Source: Thermococcus profundus (GTDB lineage Archaea; Methanobacteriota_B; Thermococci; Thermococcales; Thermococcaceae). From it: a stretch of DNA of 64,000 bases. Below are positions 32,920-41,650 of this stretch, in pieces; within the stretch, counting starts at the first letter, position 1, and every line of letters starts with the position of its first letter. Location of the stretch: assembly GCF_002214585.1 (NCBI RefSeq), contig NZ_CP014862.1:1-64000 (forward strand). Reading direction: 5' to 3'. The position numbers and the translations under genes are program-made. The notes under the pieces were generated by a model. It made no database searches. It saw only the letters and a list, made by a program, of their open reading frames with translations, and was not told the DNA's origin.

Positions 32920-33633
32920 CTAGACCTCCTCAAAGGGGCTCCTGTGCTCAACGGCCAGACCATTGGAAGTGAACTTCGCTAGGAACAGGCCAGTTTCATG
33001 TTTTGTTCTCCTCATTTTGAGAACCTGGACGGCCCTTACCATCCTCCTCTCAAGGAGGAAGTAGTGGAGCATTATGACCCCGCTCGCGAGGTAGTGCTCC
33101 TCAGTGTACCTGTTCATGTCGGTCATCTCTGCTATGAGATAGGCTGTAACCCCCAGATCCTCCAGACCCCTAACAAAGCGGGCCAGCTCGGCCTTTTTCT
33201 CAACGGGGTTCTCAATGGAGAACTCTATAGCAGTCAGGGGATCGATGACAAGGCGGGAAATGTTTTCGTCCTCCGCCATCTCCCTTATCCTGAACAGAAC
33301 GCTCTTCCAGGTTGGCACGTGGGTTGATTCCCTCCAGAGAACGGGACCGAGGTCAAAGAGGAGGAGCTTTTTAGACCCAACGTATACCTGAACGGAGGGA
33401 TCGAAGCGCATCATATCCTTAACGGCCTCGTTGGGATCCTGGATCAGGGAGACGTAGGCGACCTTCTCCCCTCTTCTCGCCCCCTCGAGTAGAAAGTGCA
33501 TCCCCATAGTGGTCTTTCCGCTTCCGGGGGGACCTGTGAGAAGATAGACCTTACCGGGTATAAGGCCGCCTTCTATCAGATCATCGAGGCCCTTCACCCC
33601 GGTGGATATCCGCTCAATCGTAAGGGTTTTCAT
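32920..33633 (-). CDS. KaiC/RecA-like ATPase
   Basis: A single-domain ATPase of 237 residues. STGVKGLDDLIEGGLIPGKV leads to Walker A GPPGSGKTT (residues 34-42) and a Walker B region LVIDPLTAIEF near 130. Single KaiC-type domains are common in Thermococcales and often regulate signalling or surface structures; the role here is unknown. The ATG at 33633 is chosen over a GTG ten codons earlier by comparison with the family start. Confidence 0.87.
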   Translation of the reverse strand: MKTLTIERISTGVKGLDDLIEGGLIPGKVYLLTGPPGSGKTTMGMHFLLEGARRGEKVAYVSLIQDPNEAVKDMMRFDPSVQVYVGSKKLLLFDLGPVLWRESTHVPTWKSVLFRIREMAEDENISRLVIDPLTAIEFSIENPVEKKAELARFVRGLEDLGVTAYLIAEMTDMNRYTEEHYLASGVIMLHYFLLERRMVRAVQVLKMRRTKHETGLFLAKFTSNGLAVEHRSPFEEV

Positions 33634-33765
33634 ATCAACGCGCCCCCACACATCACACACCACTTACTAATCAGTATTAGCCCTAAAGTAATTATTAACC
33701 TTTTGCTCACAAAGTTTTTAACTGCCCCGAGCAACACTACCCGGTGCCAAAAGTTGGAGGGCGGG

Positions 33766-34629
33766 ATCTACTTCTTGACATCAAGGGAGGCCAGAAGGCT
33801 TCTTCTAACCAGAGGTCCCGTTCGAATCAACCTCGATCTCCGGAAGACGAACAGAACCTGGGAAGTGGAGATGAGGGACGACGGTGCCCTCTTCCCAGAC
33901 GGCACCCTCGTTGAGAGGTGCATCATCGAGAGGATTGCCGGGGACGAGGGCTCGGTCTACTTCGTCAAAAACGGTGGGGTTTACAAAGCGGCGATAGCCA
34001 CTGATGCGGGTTTTTACAAGCTCGTCCCGACGATACCCCCAACCATAGAGATAAACGGCATCAGGATGCACCGCACGAAGGAAGTGAACCCCCTCCAGGA
34101 TACGAGGAACAAGGTAAACACCGTGATGCCGAAGGAAGGTGAAACTGTTCTCGACACATGCATGGGGCTGGGCTACACTGCGATAGAGGCCTCCAGGAGA
34201 GGTGCCTACGTAATAACCATCGAAAAAGACCTCCACGTTATTGAACTCGCCCGCATAAACCCCTGGAGCAGGGAGCTGTTTACTGGAGGGAAGGTTCAGG
34301 TTATCCAGGGGGATGCCTTTGAGGTCGTTAAGAAGTTCAATGACGAGAGCTTTGACGCCGTAATTCACGATCCGCCGCGCTTTTCCCTGGCCGGCCACCT
34401 GTACTCGGAGGAGTTTTACCGCGAGCTTTTCAGGATCTTGAAGCCAGGGGGAAGGCTCTTCCACTACGTCGGCAACCCCGGAAAGAGGTACAGGAGAAAA
34501 GACCTTCAGAAGGGAGTGATGGAGCGGCTTAGAAAGGCCGGCTTCGTTGGTGTCAGAAGGGTCGAGGAAGCCCTCGGGATTGTGGCGAAAAAGCCAAAAT
34601 ATGGAGCAAAAACGGGAGGGCGGGATTAA
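33766..34629 (+). CDS. Archaeal methyltransferase (COG2521 type), apparent ATC start
   Basis: About 287 residues. A strand-rich N-terminal domain precedes an S-adenosylmethionine Rossmann domain with TVLDTCMGLGYTAIEA and the motif HDPPRFSLAGHLYSEEFYRE. COG2521 methylases probably act on RNA or protein. No ATG lies where expected: TATA TTTTTAA at 33715 places transcription near 33744, GGAGG is at 33756-33760, and an in-frame ATC follows five bases later at 33766 (then YFLTSREAR). TTG at 33754 or 33775 are alternatives. Confidence 0.82.
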   Translation: MYFLTSREARRLLLTRGPVRINLDLRKTNRTWEVEMRDDGALFPDGTLVERCIIERIAGDEGSVYFVKNGGVYKAAIATDAGFYKLVPTIPPTIEINGIRMHRTKEVNPLQDTRNKVNTVMPKEGETVLDTCMGLGYTAIEASRRGAYVITIEKDLHVIELARINPWSRELFTGGKVQVIQGDAFEVVKKFNDESFDAVIHDPPRFSLAGHLYSEEFYRELFRILKPGGRLFHYVGNPGKRYRRKDLQKGVMERLRKAGFVGVRRVEEALGIVAKKPKYGAKTGGRD

Positions 34630-36026
34630 ATCCCGCCGACTTCCTCCATCTCCTCAAATGCTTCCAGGTTGGTGTAGTAGTCCATGAGCTCGTTGATCTC
34701 CCTTCTCAGCTTGAAGCTCTTGGCTATCGCTATCCCAAAGCCGATTATTGAGGGCCAGATAAGGTAGAGGAGCAGCGTTGCGTCGCTTATCGGGATGGGC
34801 CTCGGGTTTGTGAAGCGGTTGAAGTTCCATATCATCAGCGCTATCATCAGCCAGGCCGTTGAGAAGTTCGTAAGTCCGCTCCCGCTCTCTCCAAGCTTGA
34901 ACCCCGGAATGACGTCCTTAGTGAGCGGCGGGAAGAGGTTGCTCCCCATGAAACCCAGCTGATCCTCGAAGACGTGGAGCCACTGGCCTATCATCGAAGC
35001 CAGTGCTAGATCAGTCGCGTGGCTGTAGCCGAAGAGTTTGGCGAAGAGGAAGACAAAGATTCCTATTATCACTCCCATCGTCATCGAGTGGCTGAAGCCG
35101 TGGTGCCAGGGCAGGAAGCGGTCCTTAACTACCGTCTTCCCCCGGTGCTTCGTCCTCCTGAAGGCTATCTCCGGACCTGAGAAGGAGTCTATCCTCGTGG
35201 GCTTCGGGTAGGTCTTGATAAAGGGAACGTTCACCTTCGCTATTCCATACTTCCTGTACTCCGGCGGTTCTCCGCCTATGGCGATGCCGCCTGGAGTGAC
35301 TATCGGGCCCATCTCCACCCTGACTTCCCTCTTTGGGGGATCCAGATGAACTACGAATCTCCTGTAAACGTCCCCGGGCAGGCGGATGTTGTGTATCTTG
35401 ACTATTTTCTCGCCCTCCTCGTAGGCCGTTTCTATTGCCTCGGCTATAGTGTCTGCGATTCTCTGAGGATGGGGAGCGTCGCTGACGACGAACCTCAGCG
35501 AGCCGTCTGGATCAACGTCCACGTATCCAAACACGAGAATTTCCTTACCTTCCTCAATCTGGCCGAACTCCTCCTCAAAGAACCTGTAATCGTCTCCAAA
35601 AGCGTCCACGACTATCTTTCCCGTTCCATCACTGAGCGTGAAGATTATGCTGTTGTACTCCTCCTTAACGGTTCTAACCGTGCCGTCTTTCTCGATGATC
35701 TCGTACGATATAGTTCCAGATCCTTTTGTGAGTATCTCCTCGACCTTTCCCTCGATGGCGAAGAACTGGTAGCGGTTCTTCTCGCTGAGATCCTTTATTC
35801 TAACGAGCTTCGGAGCGTAGTGCTTCTTCTCGTCCCATGGGGCGGGATCGATCTCGTAGTCCCTCCTCGCGAAGAACTTGCCGAACTTGAAGTCCACGAA
35901 GTCGGGGAAATACGCCGAAGCCGCCGCTATGACTGGAATCAGGATCCCCATTCTTATGTCGGCGACCAATGAGGGGAAGAAAGTTGCAACGGCGAGACCT
36001 GATATGTAGTGAGTGAACCCCCTCAT
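34626..36026 (-). CDS. Membrane metal-dependent hydrolase (YdjM-like) with inserted OB fold
   Basis: 466 residues in three parts. The N-terminal membrane part has MRGFTHYISGLAVATFF and a conserved YFPDFVDFKFG; a soluble middle (about 80-185) is an OB fold (VEEILTKGSGTISYEIIEKD then FTLSDGTGKIVVDAF); the C-terminal membrane part carries HHGFSHSMTMGVIIG and QWLHVFEDQLG. Histidines and aspartates in membrane parts are those of the LexA-binding membrane hydrolase family (PF04307). The inserted OB fold matches those of the large protein encoded two genes upstream. Confidence 0.83.
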   Translation of the reverse strand: MRGFTHYISGLAVATFFPSLVADIRMGILIPVIAAASAYFPDFVDFKFGKFFARRDYEIDPAPWDEKKHYAPKLVRIKDLSEKNRYQFFAIEGKVEEILTKGSGTISYEIIEKDGTVRTVKEEYNSIIFTLSDGTGKIVVDAFGDDYRFFEEEFGQIEEGKEILVFGYVDVDPDGSLRFVVSDAPHPQRIADTIAEAIETAYEEGEKIVKIHNIRLPGDVYRRFVVHLDPPKREVRVEMGPIVTPGGIAIGGEPPEYRKYGIAKVNVPFIKTYPKPTRIDSFSGPEIAFRRTKHRGKTVVKDRFLPWHHGFSHSMTMGVIIGIFVFLFAKLFGYSHATDLALASMIGQWLHVFEDQLGFMGSNLFPPLTKDVIPGFKLGESGSGLTNFSTAWLMIALMIWNFNRFTNPRPIPISDATLLLYLIWPSIIGFGIAIAKSFKLRREINELMDYYTNLEAFEEMEEVGGI

Positions 36027-36032
36027 ACCGCA

Positions 36033-37364
36033 TCACCCCAGTCCGAGGAGGTGCATGAAAGCACCCGTATGTCCAGTCATGCTTACAAGCACTGGAAGGA
36101 TGAGACCTCCAAGGCAGTAGCTTCTCCTGGTGTTGAACGCGGCCGCCATAAGGCCTATCACCGTCGAGACGAAGAGCACCACCACTCCCATCCAGCCTGT
36201 AAGCAGGTAGGAGATCACAACGAGCACTGCCGCGACGAAGTAGGAGACCTTCTTGATGTGCATGACGTTGAAGCTTCTGGCTATCACTACTGAGAGGGCG
36301 TAGGTGAACAGGAAGCTTATTCCAGCGGCGAGCAGAATGACGCCGATAGCGGCTATGTACTCGGAGTAGCTCTTGGGAGTGTATATGGAGCTCACCAGCC
36401 ACGCCCCAGCTCCCCTCGTGAGCCTCAGGTTCGGCAGGAAGAGGAGCGAAAAGGCACCCACGTAGTAGAGAACCCTGTTCACACCCTGGCTGATGATGAA
36501 GGCGTCGTCACCGCGCTGGCTCGTCATGTGGCCTGCTACCAGCGCTCCCATACCTCCCGTGATTATCGGGTAGACCGCGGCTATTGTCCCTCCGAGGGCA
36601 CCTCCAAAGCTGGCCTTCAGGGTGTTGTAGATGCTGCTCTCAATCATATCCTCCGGCTTCTGCGGTAGCATCGGGGGGTTTGAGAGGATGTTGAGTATGA
36701 CCCACGACATTCCGAAGAACCCTATGAACATAGGTGTGAGCCTCGTGTAAGCGCTCGTCGTTGGGAGTACGCTGGTGTTCATGACTATGAACCCGAGTAT
36801 TCCGGAGATGAAGAACACGAGGATTCCGCCGAGTATCTGCCTCCACGCCAGCCACAGCCTCTCTTTCACCGTTCTCCCCCTGTCCCCCTCCTTTGGCCAC
36901 TCGCTCATGAACATGAAGAGCACTATTGCCGTCAGGAAGTACGTGATGTACGGACTCGTTGCCTGGTATATCGGCGGGAGGACCTTGGGGAAAATGAAGA
37001 GCATTCCAAGGACGAGAATGAGCGTTCCTGAAACGGCTCCGATGAGGTAGAGCAGCACCGCTTCGTGTCCCCTGCCAAGGAGGAGGTAGCGCTGGGTCGG
37101 GAAGAGGAGGAAGACTGCACTCTCATCCGCCACACTGAAGTAGACGCTGGATATGGCGCTGACGTAGGAGTAAGCCACTATGGCCCCAAGACCAAAGAAA
37201 GGAAAGGCCTCAACCGGCATCTTCTCCCCGACCCCAAAGACTGCCACCAGTAAGGCTATAATGTTGTAGATATGAAAACCGGGGATCCAGGATATCAGCG
37301 AGCCGAAGAGCACCCCAGCGAAGGACCAGATTAAAATATCTGAAAGGGGAAGCATGGGCATCAC
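36033..37364 (-). CDS. TctA-like permease (COG1784)
   Basis: A 443-residue membrane protein with some 11-12 segments. SLISWIPGFHIYNIIALLVA and FGGALGGTIAAVYPIITGGM are the paired glycine-rich motifs of the tripartite tricarboxylate transporter A family. The archaeal COG1784 branch lacks known periplasmic partners, and its substrate is unknown. Its start overlaps the OB-repeat gene by ATGA and the hydrolase gene follows after six bases, so the three proteins are likely made together. Confidence 0.86.
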   Translation of the reverse strand: MMPMLPLSDILIWSFAGVLFGSLISWIPGFHIYNIIALLVAVFGVGEKMPVEAFPFFGLGAIVAYSYVSAISSVYFSVADESAVFLLFPTQRYLLLGRGHEAVLLYLIGAVSGTLILVLGMLFIFPKVLPPIYQATSPYITYFLTAIVLFMFMSEWPKEGDRGRTVKERLWLAWRQILGGILVFFISGILGFIVMNTSVLPTTSAYTRLTPMFIGFFGMSWVILNILSNPPMLPQKPEDMIESSIYNTLKASFGGALGGTIAAVYPIITGGMGALVAGHMTSQRGDDAFIISQGVNRVLYYVGAFSLLFLPNLRLTRGAGAWLVSSIYTPKSYSEYIAAIGVILLAAGISFLFTYALSVVIARSFNVMHIKKVSYFVAAVLVVISYLLTGWMGVVVLFVSTVIGLMAAAFNTRRSYCLGGLILPVLVSMTGHTGAFMHLLGLG

Positions 37365-40342
37365 CTCACCTGGATGGCATCGGCGGTGTACGGTATGACC
37401 TCAACCGCACCCCTGTACTCCGAAACGTAGCCCCCTACCTTGACCCTCTGCCCCTCGCTGAAGGTGAGGTCTCCGGCGACGCTCTTTGGAATAAAGATCA
37501 CCAGCTCGCCGCTTCCGTCGTCTATCGTGAGCTTGATGAAGCTCTTTCCGTTATAGACGTCCTTGATGGTGCCCTCTACGACAACGGTCCTGCCTTTGAG
37601 GTCAAGAGTGACGGCTCCAGTCTTGTAAGACTCCGCTGGTACGGCCTCGACGACGGTGAGGGAGATTACTTTCTTCCTGTCGGCGTCGTAGGTTATCCTT
37701 ATCCTGCTGCCGGTTCCAGCCTCGAACGGGTTCGGAAGGAGCTCGCGGCTGATCGAGAGAGTGGCGTTTCCTGTGTCGTCACTGACAGCGATATAATAGC
37801 CGCTCTTGTAGGCTACCCCCTCCCAAACGACCGTGAGGTTCACCTGGCCGGTGGCAGATGAAAGCTCCGAAACGGTGACTTCTTTTGCGGTTTCAGTGGC
37901 TCCTCCCTGTGATGGCACTCCCTCGACCTTCACCGCCTCTGTATTGTACACAACGAGCTCCGGCGCACCCCTGTATTCTTCCACGTAGCCCGCCGTGTAC
38001 ACCACAGCGCCTTCGGTGATGTTCAATCCCGCACCGCTCGGTATGAAGACCGTTACCTTTCCACTGCCATCGTCAAGGGTCAGTTTGAGGTTGTTTCCAA
38101 CGGTCGAAACTTTAACAGCCGTCGCGTTGAGGGCTATGACTTCACCCTTCAGGTCGAGCGTAACGTCTCCAGTCCTGTAGAGCTTCGGCTGAACTGCATT
38201 CGCAACTTCAAGGGAAGTCGCACTGCCCGAGAGCGGATCAACGACGATCCTGAGGATGCTTCCGGTGGCCGCTTCAATCGGGTTCGGGAGAAGCTCCTTC
38301 GTCGCCGTTACGGTCGTGCTTCCGGTGTCGTCGTGAACCGCGAGGTAGTACTCACCGTTCTCGTAGGAGATCGAGTCCCAGGCAACCGTCAGGAGGAGCG
38401 GTTCAACGGCACTCTTAAGGTCTGAAACGGTGCCCTCAACGGGTCCGGTCTGCTCGATCTTCCCGATCGCCTCGGGATGGAAGACGACAACCTCCGGCTC
38501 GCCGCGGTAGAGCTCAACGTAGCCGCCTATCTCGACCAGGTCGCCCTCCTGCGGGACGTAGGTCAGCTCGTCGGCGGTGGTTCTCGGCACGAACACCGGG
38601 AGGTTGCCAAGGGTTATCTTGAGGTTGCCGCTGAGGTTCGCGACGTCTGTGACCCTGCCGGCAACGACTATCACCCTGCCGACCATCTCAGGGGTAACGC
38701 TGTCCGGACGCATCTGGACCGGAGGAACCGCCGTTTGTACCGTTAAGGACTCTCCCTTGAGGTGATCCGGATCTCTGACGAGAGCCCTGATGACCAGAAC
38801 GCTTCCATCGCCAGCTTCGAGCGGGTTGAGGGCCATCAGAGCGTCCCTTGAGATCGAGACCGTGACATTATCGACGTTCAGGTAGTAGGTTCCGTTGGCG
38901 TAGGTGAGGCCCTGGAGTGTGCCGATGAAATCGACGAGCTTTCCTGTGTAGCCTTCAAGCTCGGAAGCTTTAACCTTCGGAAGCTGAACCTCCGATGGGC
39001 TGACCGGCCTTCCTAGGGCCTTTATTCCCTCTCCCGTGTAGACGACTATTTCCGGACTGCCGCGGTACTCGTCGAGGTAGCCGGCAACTTCAACACCGAG
39101 ACCTTCCTTGAGGCCAGAGAGCGTCTCGTTGGACAGCTCCCTGAGAGTGGCCGATGGTATGAAGACGTCAATCCTTCCGGTTCCATCGCTGATTACCAGC
39201 TTGAGGTTTGAACCGACCTTCTGAACCTCCTCAACGTTGGCCCTGACTGCAACTATCGTGCCCTTCATATCGGGCGTCAGGACTCCCACGGGCAGGAACT
39301 CAGTATTAACGGGTTTGACCGCTTTGAGGTATGCTCCAACGAGCCTGCCGTCGTCGCCCATCTTTCCGGCGGCCTTGACAAGGCTTCCGCTCGCTACCTC
39401 GAACGGGTTGAGGCTGGCCAGAACTTCCCTAGGAACGAGCACTTCAAGGTAGTTGACGCCATCCGTTAAAGTGATGACGTAGCGGCCGTTCTCATATGAT
39501 ATGCCGGTGAGGTTGCCCTGGACTGACATGACCATTCCAACGTAGCCCGAGGCCTCAGCTAGAGGAACGAGCGGCGCGCTCTCTATCGGCGTTACGTTAA
39601 ACTGCTCAAGGGACCTGACGACGATTTCAGGGGAGGTTCCCTTGTAGAGGTAGACGATGCCGGGCGCGTAAACGGTGTCCCCGACTTTTACTGAGACGTT
39701 GTTTTTGATGAGGAGGACTCTCGGTATGAGGACCGTAACTGGGGCGAGTCCGGTATCCACGGTTAAGAGATAGCCAGAGCTGACGTTGGAGAGAGCTGTA
39801 ACGATGCCCTGCACGGCAACGTAGGTGTTGCTCATGTTTTCAGTTAGCTCCTTAACCGTCTCGGGATTCTCGGAGTAGAGCTTACTGTTGAACTTGAGTC
39901 CCTCAAGGTACTGGAGCATGGCGTATGTGTAGGTCTCCCTAACGCGCAGCTGCACCTCAGCAGTGACGTTGTCCCCGGGGAATGGAACCATCCCCCTCTC
40001 GATCATCTCATCAGCGAGCGGTGAGTAGACCCTAACGTCCATCTGCCCCGTTCCATCGTCTATCGTAAACGTCAGAGAGAGCTTGCCGCCTGATTCGGAG
40101 ACGTAGGGAACGCTCGCGACAGTTCCGCTGAGCCTTACAACCGCGTAGTTCATCATGTAGTTGCCCGTGACTTCCTTCACGTCCATGAGAGGGGCCTGTG
40201 CACCCTGAGCGACAACTAGCAGAACCGCGACCCCAATCACTGACAGCAGAAGCGAAAGATACTTCAGTCTCGATACGTCGAGCTTCTTTTGCTCTTTTAA
40301 ACCGTGATAATATAGCTTTTTCTCTTCCTTCTCGCCGGCCAT
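37361..40342 (-). CDS. Giant OB-fold repeat protein anchored in the membrane
   Basis: 993 residues: a charged cytoplasmic start, one membrane segment (about 28-47), then an outer region of repeated OB folds. After two divergent N-terminal folds come about four tandem units of some 165-190 residues, each holding two OB folds. Unit marks include TIDDGSGELVIFIP and GYVSEYRGAVEVIPY, with variants YLDEYRGSPEIVVY, YVELYRGEPEVVVF and YVEEYRGAPELVVY. GGAGGT lies six bases before ATG. OB folds bind nucleic acid, sugar or protein; the ligand is unknown. Confidence 0.85.
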   Translation of the reverse strand: MAGEKEEKKLYYHGLKEQKKLDVSRLKYLSLLLSVIGVAVLLVVAQGAQAPLMDVKEVTGNYMMNYAVVRLSGTVASVPYVSESGGKLSLTFTIDDGTGQMDVRVYSPLADEMIERGMVPFPGDNVTAEVQLRVRETYTYAMLQYLEGLKFNSKLYSENPETVKELTENMSNTYVAVQGIVTALSNVSSGYLLTVDTGLAPVTVLIPRVLLIKNNVSVKVGDTVYAPGIVYLYKGTSPEIVVRSLEQFNVTPIESAPLVPLAEASGYVGMVMSVQGNLTGISYENGRYVITLTDGVNYLEVLVPREVLASLNPFEVASGSLVKAAGKMGDDGRLVGAYLKAVKPVNTEFLPVGVLTPDMKGTIVAVRANVEEVQKVGSNLKLVISDGTGRIDVFIPSATLRELSNETLSGLKEGLGVEVAGYLDEYRGSPEIVVYTGEGIKALGRPVSPSEVQLPKVKASELEGYTGKLVDFIGTLQGLTYANGTYYLNVDNVTVSISRDALMALNPLEAGDGSVLVIRALVRDPDHLKGESLTVQTAVPPVQMRPDSVTPEMVGRVIVVAGRVTDVANLSGNLKITLGNLPVFVPRTTADELTYVPQEGDLVEIGGYVELYRGEPEVVVFHPEAIGKIEQTGPVEGTVSDLKSAVEPLLLTVAWDSISYENGEYYLAVHDDTGSTTVTATKELLPNPIEAATGSILRIVVDPLSGSATSLEVANAVQPKLYRTGDVTLDLKGEVIALNATAVKVSTVGNNLKLTLDDGSGKVTVFIPSGAGLNITEGAVVYTAGYVEEYRGAPELVVYNTEAVKVEGVPSQGGATETAKEVTVSELSSATGQVNLTVVWEGVAYKSGYYIAVSDDTGNATLSISRELLPNPFEAGTGSRIRITYDADRKKVISLTVVEAVPAESYKTGAVTLDLKGRTVVVEGTIKDVYNGKSFIKLTIDDGSGELVIFIPKSVAGDLTFSEGQRVKVGGYVSEYRGAVEVIPYTADAIQVR

Positions 40343-40555
40343 AAGCGTACCTCCGATTATTTAACGTAGCAGGTTGGTTGATGGATGACCCTTTTAACAT
40401 TTTCGTGTCGAAGGAATCCAAAGGTGGGCAGAAATGGGCAGGATTCAACATGACTTCATGACATCGTAAACGTCCCAAACTGGCCCCCAGGCAAAAGTGA
40501 ATAGAGCAGTAACCACGCCTCGGCGAGAAAGTCGAAAAAAGCAAAAAATATGGTA
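40343..40555. other. Spacer between the OB-fold lipoprotein and the OB-repeat gene
   Basis: No gene is supported. GATTATTTAACG near 40355 (reverse strand CGTTAAATAATC) is a likely promoter for the three-gene operon, which is therefore probably transcribed apart from the lipoprotein. Confidence 0.45.
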
Positions 40556-41584
40556 TCAGGAGAGTAGCTCAACGCACTCCGGCCTGTAGGGGATTATCTC
40601 TATCGTCCCCCTGTATTCCGTTATGTAGCCGCTTATCCTGACTGAGACACCGTTTGTGAGGCCGTCTTTTATATCCTGCGGCAGGTCGTAGGCAACCGAG
40701 CCTGGTATGAATATCGTCACGTTGCCCGTTGAGTCAGCCAGAACGAACTTGAGGTTTGAGCCTATGGTCTGGAAGTTCGTGACGTTGCCCTCCACAACGG
40801 CGGTCGTCCCAATACGATCGAAGGTGACCTCCGAAGTGTGGAGCAGTGGGGAAGGCTCCGCCTCGACGATGGACACGTTTAGCACCGTCAAAGCCCCAGC
40901 GTCAACGGTGAGATCAAGAAGACTGCCCGTGCCCGCCTTGGAAGGATTTGGGATAATGGACCTTTCAACGGTCAGGTTAACGGTTCCGGTGTCATCCCCG
41001 ACCTCCATCAGGTAGTTGGGCTTCGAGTAGTAGAGCCTGAACCAGACCACCCTAAGATGAACCTCCCCGCTTGCCGAAGAAAGCTCAGCGACGGTAATTG
41101 CTGACGGGGCAGCAGTGGTGGTTGTTGTCGTAGTGGTGGTAGTTGTGGTGGTCGGGGGAGTCGTCGTTGTAGTTTCCACCGGGCTCGTTGTGGTAGTGGT
41201 CGTGGTAGTTGTAGTGGTCTCCATCGGGCTTGTTGTGGTGGTTGTAGCGGTGGTTGTTGTCGTAGTGGTGGTTTCCACTTGGCTCGAGGTTGTGGTTGCA
41301 GTCGTAGTGGCGGACCCGCTGGTCGTAGTAGTGGTTGGAACGGTCGTGGTCGTAGTGGTGGCCACGGCTGTGGTTGAAGGGCTCGACGTTGTGGTTACAT
41401 GGCTTGAAGTGGTCGTTTCGGAGGGAGTTGTAGAGGTTGTCGACGTGGTTGAAAGGGCCGTCGTCTGGGTTGTCGTTGAAGAGGGGCTCGAGGTAGTGGT
41501 TTCGCTTCCACCTCCCCCAATACAGCCGAGGGAGAGGACCAAAAGGCCAAGAACAAACAGCACCAGTAGCTTCTTCCCGTGGAT
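40556..41584 (-). CDS. Lipoprotein with Ser/Thr-rich stalk and one OB-repeat unit, apparent ATC start
   Basis: 342 residues. A signal peptide with lipobox LSLGCIGGG is followed by about 140 residues that are nearly all threonine and serine, a likely glycosylated stalk, and then one unit (about 185 residues) closely matching the last unit of the OB-repeat protein (ITVAELSSASGEVHLRVVWF; YITEYRGTIEIIPY). A GTG at 41563 gives no positive signal start and no ribosome site. ATC at 41584, five bases after AGGTGAT (41596-41590), gives HGKKLLVLFVLG, a proper signal peptide. Confidence 0.8.
   Translation of the reverse strand: MHGKKLLVLFVLGLLVLSLGCIGGGGSETTTSSPSSTTTQTTALSTTSTTSTTPSETTTSSHVTTTSSPSTTAVATTTTTTVPTTTTTSGSATTTATTTSSQVETTTTTTTTATTTTTSPMETTTTTTTTTTTSPVETTTTTPPTTTTTTTTTTTTTAAPSAITVAELSSASGEVHLRVVWFRLYYSKPNYLMEVGDDTGTVNLTVERSIIPNPSKAGTGSLLDLTVDAGALTVLNVSIVEAEPSPLLHTSEVTFDRIGTTAVVEGNVTNFQTIGSNLKFVLADSTGNVTIFIPGSVAYDLPQDIKDGLTNGVSVRISGYITEYRGTIEIIPYRPECVELLS
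41103..41515 (-). repeat. Degenerate ACN triplet tract inside the lipoprotein gene
   Basis: The Ser/Thr stalk is coded by an imperfect microsatellite of ACN triplets mixed with ATC/AGT-type codons, with longer blocks ending SPVETTTTT or SPMETTTTT repeated. Length variation between strains is to be expected. On the other strand it reads as long false poly-valine ORFs. Confidence 0.85.
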
Positions 41585-41650
41585 GTTGGATCACCTTTAT
41601 CAAGATACACCAACGTGTATATAGGCCTTTCTCTAAAAGAATAGAAAAGA

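Follow-up and report, generated by a model that had tools for sequence, protein, structure and literature searches.

A tandem OB-fold gene set in Thermococcus

The window analysed here, a stretch of 64,000 nucleotides from Thermococcus profundus (NZ_CP014862.1, positions 1 to 64,000), contains a large OB-fold repeat protein gene followed without appreciable spacing by genes for a TctA-like permease and a PF04307-family membrane protein, which raises the question of whether the three products act together and on what ligand. A first-pass annotation of this DNA had proposed that they capture, transport and cut a single ligand at the cell surface. The features on which the following analysis is based are these:

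34626 to 36026, minus strand: P0001, 466 aa, PF04307/YdjM-family membrane protein split by an inserted OB domain
35457 to 35759, minus strand: OB insert of P0001, about aa 90-190; PF01336, B-unit HMM match, AlphaFold/Foldseek match to P. abyssi RPA
36033 to 37364, minus strand: P0002, 443 aa, TctA-family permease; PF01970
37361 to 40342, minus strand: P0003, 993 aa, tandem OB protein with membrane anchor
37364 to 39874, minus strand: OB2 and four A/B pairs of P0003, from HMM domain matches
39875 to 40186, minus strand: OB1 of P0003, adjoining the TM helix; PF16099 E=6e-8; DUF4131 (ComEC N-terminal) E=0.037, sub-threshold
40202 to 40270, minus strand: single N-terminal TM helix of P0003, about aa 25-47, with a basic segment before the helix; hydropathy
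40556 to 41563, possibly from 41584, minus strand: P0004, accessory lipoprotein with a Thr-rich stalk and one A/B OB pair

By their ORF coordinates all four genes lie on the minus strand. P0003 overlaps P0002 by 4 bases, 6 bases separate the P0002 stop from the P0001 start, and a gap of approximately 210 bases lies between P0004 and P0003, so that the positions, order and close packing first described for P0003-P0002-P0001 are borne out. The same is true of the OB theme shared by P0003, P0001 and P0004, as each of these proteins is matched by PF01336. In P0003 the match extends over five stretches (E=3.4e-31), in agreement with the assignment of its repeat units to the OB fold. Home-made HMMs for the A- and B-type repeats, whose E-values derive from small sets and are relative only, resolve the architecture of P0003 into a TM helix, OB1, OB2 and four A/B pairs, or about ten OB units. 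The original description of P0003 as an outer protein of tandem OB pairs requires correction in that hydropathy identifies its N-terminus as a membrane anchor. The ectodomain is acidic, with a net charge of -38, and aromatic residues are scarce. Four carriers of the gene set encode a shorter form of 649-703 aa with about six OB units.

P0001 is matched by YdjM (PF04307) in two stretches (E=1.7e-11; 44.3 bits against a curated cut-off of 29), and its OB domain (PF01336, E=2.4e-7, aa 115-183) is located between the His/Asp motif blocks of that family. Residues H6, D42, D45, H308, H309, H313, H351 and D355 are invariant in 25 orthologs and are candidate metal ligands. Thus, P0001 resembles the PF04307/YdjM membrane hydrolases in family score and invariant motifs, but differs from them in carrying an insert of about 250 residues with an RPA-like OB fold between the motif blocks; a YdjM gene of ordinary size (open frame of 178 aa) occurs elsewhere in the same genome. 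In the AlphaFold model of the insert, the one OB unit whose structure was predicted, the best Foldseek match is to archaeal RPA OB folds (E=2.7e-7), with further matches to archaeal MCM OB folds. The membrane part of the protein, unlike this soluble insert, is modelled poorly. The HMM built from the B-type OB unit of P0003 also finds the OB domain of P0001, which ties the two proteins together. The earlier view of P0001 as a membrane hydrolase with an inserted OB fold is therefore upheld for both domain matches, with catalysis a prediction that takes the label 'hydrolase' from family annotation. To our knowledge, no PF04307 protein has been demonstrated to act as a nuclease.

Inheritance and loss of the cassette

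The proposal that the three genes belong together predicts that they should occur together in other genomes. Genes for P0001 and P0002-type proteins are present in exactly the same 28 of 94 Thermococci genomes, with P0001 counted whether complete or truncated at the edge of a contig; the 94 are species representatives sharing ancestry, such that 28/28 does not amount to 28 independent events. Co-occurrence is accordingly strict, as the first-pass annotation expected, but it is not a property of Thermococcales at large: the 28 carriers fall among the 53 genomes of the window's genus, compared with none of 41 genomes in others. Similarly, 18 of 61 Thermococcaceae genomes contain the P0001, P0002-type and P0003 genes as a group with unchanged order, and all 18 belong to this one genus. 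A wider distribution of the three-gene system was considered and rejected, since a profile search found no match in 295 Methanocalculus-phylum genomes (run with no positive control) or in plasmids.

Gene order does not vary among the 25 carriers compared, and wherever flanking DNA is covered the neighbours on either side of the cassette are genes for an S9 peptidase and a methyltransferase. Nine genomes of the genus that lack the cassette could be read at the peptidase locus. In seven of these, 36-69 bases lie between the ends of the peptidase match and the methyltransferase match; in an eighth (G045) the distance is 164 bases and the intervening DNA retains a 43-residue remnant of P0001, and in the ninth the methyltransferase lies about 1.1 kb from the peptidase. 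Five genomes possess only the 3′ end of P0001, beginning at residues 424, 365, 410, 368 and 380, and have no P0002. This pattern fits an island of about 7 kb that was acquired at one constant position and has been lost on several occasions, with the clean sites also interpretable as ancestral. Deletions that have differing breakpoints and yet remove the set together are a stronger argument for a single unit than the 28/28 count, and they support the conclusion that P0001, P0002 and P0003 are co-inherited.

A patchy, island-like distribution with losses is also what might be seen for a surface defence system that would catch viral or plasmid DNA on its way into the cell and degrade it, and a hydrolase family and a nucleic-acid-type OB fold are indeed combined in this set. 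We regard this explanation as very improbable, given that no PADLOC model scores above noise, no mobile-element context is seen, and P0002 is strongly conserved. Searches of the cassette proteins against defence, phage and NCBIfam libraries returned nothing useful.

Among carriers, identity to the window copy is 85-93% for P0002, and for P0003 it runs from 44% (short forms) to 86%. P0002, the putative channel, is thus the constrained part of the cassette. This disparity bears on the idea of an envelope or adhesion module, wherein the OB repeats would serve chiefly as a rigid spacer or as an adhesin for glycans or proteins, and P0001 and P0002 would act on or transport a lipid or glycan of the envelope. 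Variation in repeat number among species (ten versus six units), the additional repeats of some lipoproteins and the acidic, aromatic-poor character of the repeats would all suit such a role. An island that is dispensable and repeatedly lost, and whose permease is much more conserved than its OB protein, would not, and we consider the module distinctly unlikely.

Relationship to the archaeal transformation genes

The closest known system is found in Methanococcus maripaludis, where natural transformation requires both MMJJ_13020, an OB-fold protein with one TM helix, and the TctA-like MMJJ_13030 (Fonseca et al., 2023; PMC10133366). A TctA homolog is likewise essential for transformation in Methanoculleus thermophilus, and a TctA-like protein is a leading candidate for the transporter that brings DNA across the archaeal membrane (PMC10133366). 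In a genome (G122) that we take to be strain JJ on the strength of this match, the published insertions lie within both genes: 1,193,041, 1,193,088 and 1,193,089 fall in the OB gene (1192953-1193564), and 1,194,079 falls in the TctA gene (1193565-1194761). The assertion that no described system has this set is consequently only half true, as the pairing of an OB protein with TctA has been described and is essential in Methanococcus transformation (PMC10133366).

As in Methanococcus, the cassette has a membrane-anchored OB gene directly before a TctA permease gene, and the OB units are alike: the P0003 B-unit HMM scores 26 bits on MMJJ_13020, both proteins contain a weak match to ComEC DUF4131, and MMJJ_13020 is acidic, as is the P0003 ectodomain. 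The likeness is confined to single OB units, with whole-protein profile comparisons between P0003 and other OB proteins being weak. The differences are also clear. MMJJ_13020 has 203 aa and a Cys/His tail, whereas P0003 has 993 aa and about ten OB units; the cassette TctA is approximately 28% identical to MMJJ_13030 and is without part of its signature; and no PF04307-like gene is seen at the Methanococcus locus. Proteins of the MMJJ_13020 type (L133:6954-7565 and others) have a conserved YHxxxxCPYG...CxxC tail that resembles a small metal-binding domain. In a class-level relative (f4, L107:7845-9278), the OB gene and TctA are separated by a gene for a secreted protein, which has a CARDB match as well as a Thr/Pro-rich stretch.

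Thermococcaceae also possess a second, universal pair. Beside any copy of the cassette, a TctA of about 370-390 aa is present in every one of the 53 Thermococcaceae genomes with completeness of 90% or more and contamination of 5% or less, and at all 26 of the universal loci examined an overlapping or adjoining OB gene directly precedes it. Contig ends cut this OB gene in two of the loci, and in one it is shortened. Most of the 26 have KaiC-like ATPase genes (PF06745) upstream. In the window's own genome the pair is located as follows:

C1, about 1716660-1718953: universal OB/TctA pair, in an operon with KaiC-like ATPases to about 1720530

The universal pair comprises the same two overlapping gene types as the cassette, OB first. 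It differs in its TctA, which has 374-386 aa and is nearer to the methanogen set than is the cassette TctA, and in its OB protein, which has about 390 aa and is Cys-rich and near-neutral, as well as in having no hydrolase gene and in its KaiC-like neighbours. This operon, in which TctA and a membrane protein with several OB units and many Cys residues are joined by one or two KaiC-like ATPases, is a strong candidate for the DNA-uptake locus of Thermococcales.

The PF01970 match of P0002 is full length (E=1e-41; 143.4 bits against a curated cut-off of 28.9, aa 11-418), yet its identity to each of the other archaeal TctA groups compared is low, at about 28%, and of 32 columns that archaeal TctA proteins otherwise conserve it has changed 11, including H65, P72, G77, P79 and H91. 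In a tree it occupies a branch of length 3.6 outside the universal clade (support 100/100). Identity and signature residues favour the universal copy over P0002 as the counterpart of MMJJ_13030; an AU test of the cassette TctA joining the universal clade gave p=0.51, leaving its attachment point open, and a formal assignment of the universal TctA, not P0002, as the MMJJ_13030 ortholog was withdrawn on this account. That the universal pair was recently duplicated within the genus to give the cassette is disfavoured by the exclusion of the cassette from the universal clade. We conclude that the cassette is a diverged, genus-specific second OB/TctA module to which a hydrolase gene has been added.

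Comparison of the two TctA copies between species yields a further observation. Between the window genome and its near relative T. kodakarensis (G030), the cassette TctA is 93% and the flanking peptidase 91% identical, but the universal TctA only 52%; the window's universal TctA is 62-66% identical to those of four other species, for which identity of the cassette TctA falls to 86-87%. This disagreement between the identities suggests that the universal uptake locus may have been replaced horizontally.

An alternative view is that P0002 is a nutrient transporter for a small acid or breakdown product, with the OB mast binding a parent polymer other than nucleic acid and P0001 freeing the monomer. 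In bacteria, TctA proteins transport citrate and acids like it (cited in PMC10133366), and the signature of P0002 departs from that of the transformation-type TctA. The model of P0002 is that of a multi-helix membrane protein (pLDDT 85), for which a structural search gave no significant match and, as weak neighbours, small-molecule carriers such as CitS; the fold thus decides neither for a channel nor for a small-molecule carrier. The 'tripartite-tricarboxylate-like' label is apt for the permease itself, but, in contrast to a TctABC transporter, neither TctB nor TctC was found by Pfam among the cassette genes and the neighbours scanned. With the OB fold of P0001 modelled as RPA-like, and the closest functionally tested OB/TctA pair working in DNA uptake (PMC10133366), a nutrient transporter appears unlikely.

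A possible role in nucleic-acid handling

Gene order, co-inheritance, domain make-up and homology of gene types to a transformation-essential pair are established directly for the cassette; its ligand, direction of transport and catalysis, and the association of the products in a three-protein complex, are what we infer. Joint action on one surface ligand, as first proposed with nucleic acid among the options, is a reasonable reading of these data, and because the first two gene types resemble the archaeal DNA-uptake pair, the cassette is perhaps a second, specialised DNA-handling machine. Our tentative preference, held with slightly less than even confidence, is for surface capture, import and cutting of nucleic acid. 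P0003, anchored in the membrane, would form a mast of approximately ten OB units that reaches outward for capture; P0002 would be the membrane channel through which nucleic acid or its products pass; and P0001 would be a membrane-embedded, metal-dependent hydrolase whose RPA-like OB fold holds the strand during cutting or trimming. The labour would be split roughly as among bacterial ComEA, the ComEC channel and a nuclease. This comparison is one of analogy, supplemented by the weak DUF4131 match in the TM-OB region of P0003: that sub-threshold match is all that Pfam detects of ComEC in the cassette, which has neither the competence nor the MBL nuclease domain and is not a member of that family.

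Nucleic-acid handling is favoured by the essential role of the pair in M. maripaludis, the related OB units and the RPA/MCM-type OB model, and also by the 28/28 co-occurrence, the fixed order and overlap, the loss as a unit and the presence of the cassette in T. kodakarensis, a naturally competent carrier. Evidence against it includes the diverged cassette TctA with its changed signature, the acidic, aromatic-poor repeats of P0003 (a point tempered by the acidity of MMJJ_13020) and the poor model of the P0001 membrane part. OB folds, moreover, bind sugars and proteins as well. Other Thermococcaceae genera are without the cassette; these genera presumably include Pyrococcus, an assignment of our own made at the level of the genus. 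P. furiosus is described in the literature as competent. As the TctA signature is partly lost and competent relatives apparently lack the cassette, the cassette is not the general DNA-uptake system.

A more specific version, in which the cassette is a second DNA/RNA import-processing complex restricted to Thermococcus, is possible but doubtful; in it a ten-unit OB mast would feed a nucleic-acid channel of the TctA type, and the strand would be trimmed by a membrane nuclease of a new kind that combines PF04307 with an RPA-like OB fold. If the cassette does handle nucleic acid, a nuclease candidate would be added to the archaeal uptake machinery and a function would be suggested for PF04307. T. 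kodakarensis is genetically tractable as well as naturally competent, and since it carries both the universal pair and the cassette, the two OB/TctA sets can be compared there directly.

Accessory lipoprotein and neighbouring genes

P0004 (PF01336, E=1.9e-7) had been listed as a neighbouring part of the system. It is present in only 5 of the 25 carriers compared and is thereby ruled out as a core part. In some species the lipoprotein has additional OB repeats; the OB lipoprotein gene of one genome (G099, L192:4961-6394) encodes four OB units and lies on the strand opposite to the cassette. The start of P0004 is uncertain because none of ATG, GTG or TTG occurs at 41584, where the codon is ATC and an in-frame TGA lies three codons upstream. 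At 41563-41590, where the start in relatives would be, an RBS-like GGTGATC is followed by AAC ATC. Translation may begin from the ATC at 41584 or from a GTG at 41563, or the gene may be decaying.

One gene beyond P0001, positions 32923-33663 encode a KaiC-like ATPase (PF06745, E=1e-43), and a gene resembling it is still present close to the site in genomes that have lost the cassette (L037, L038).
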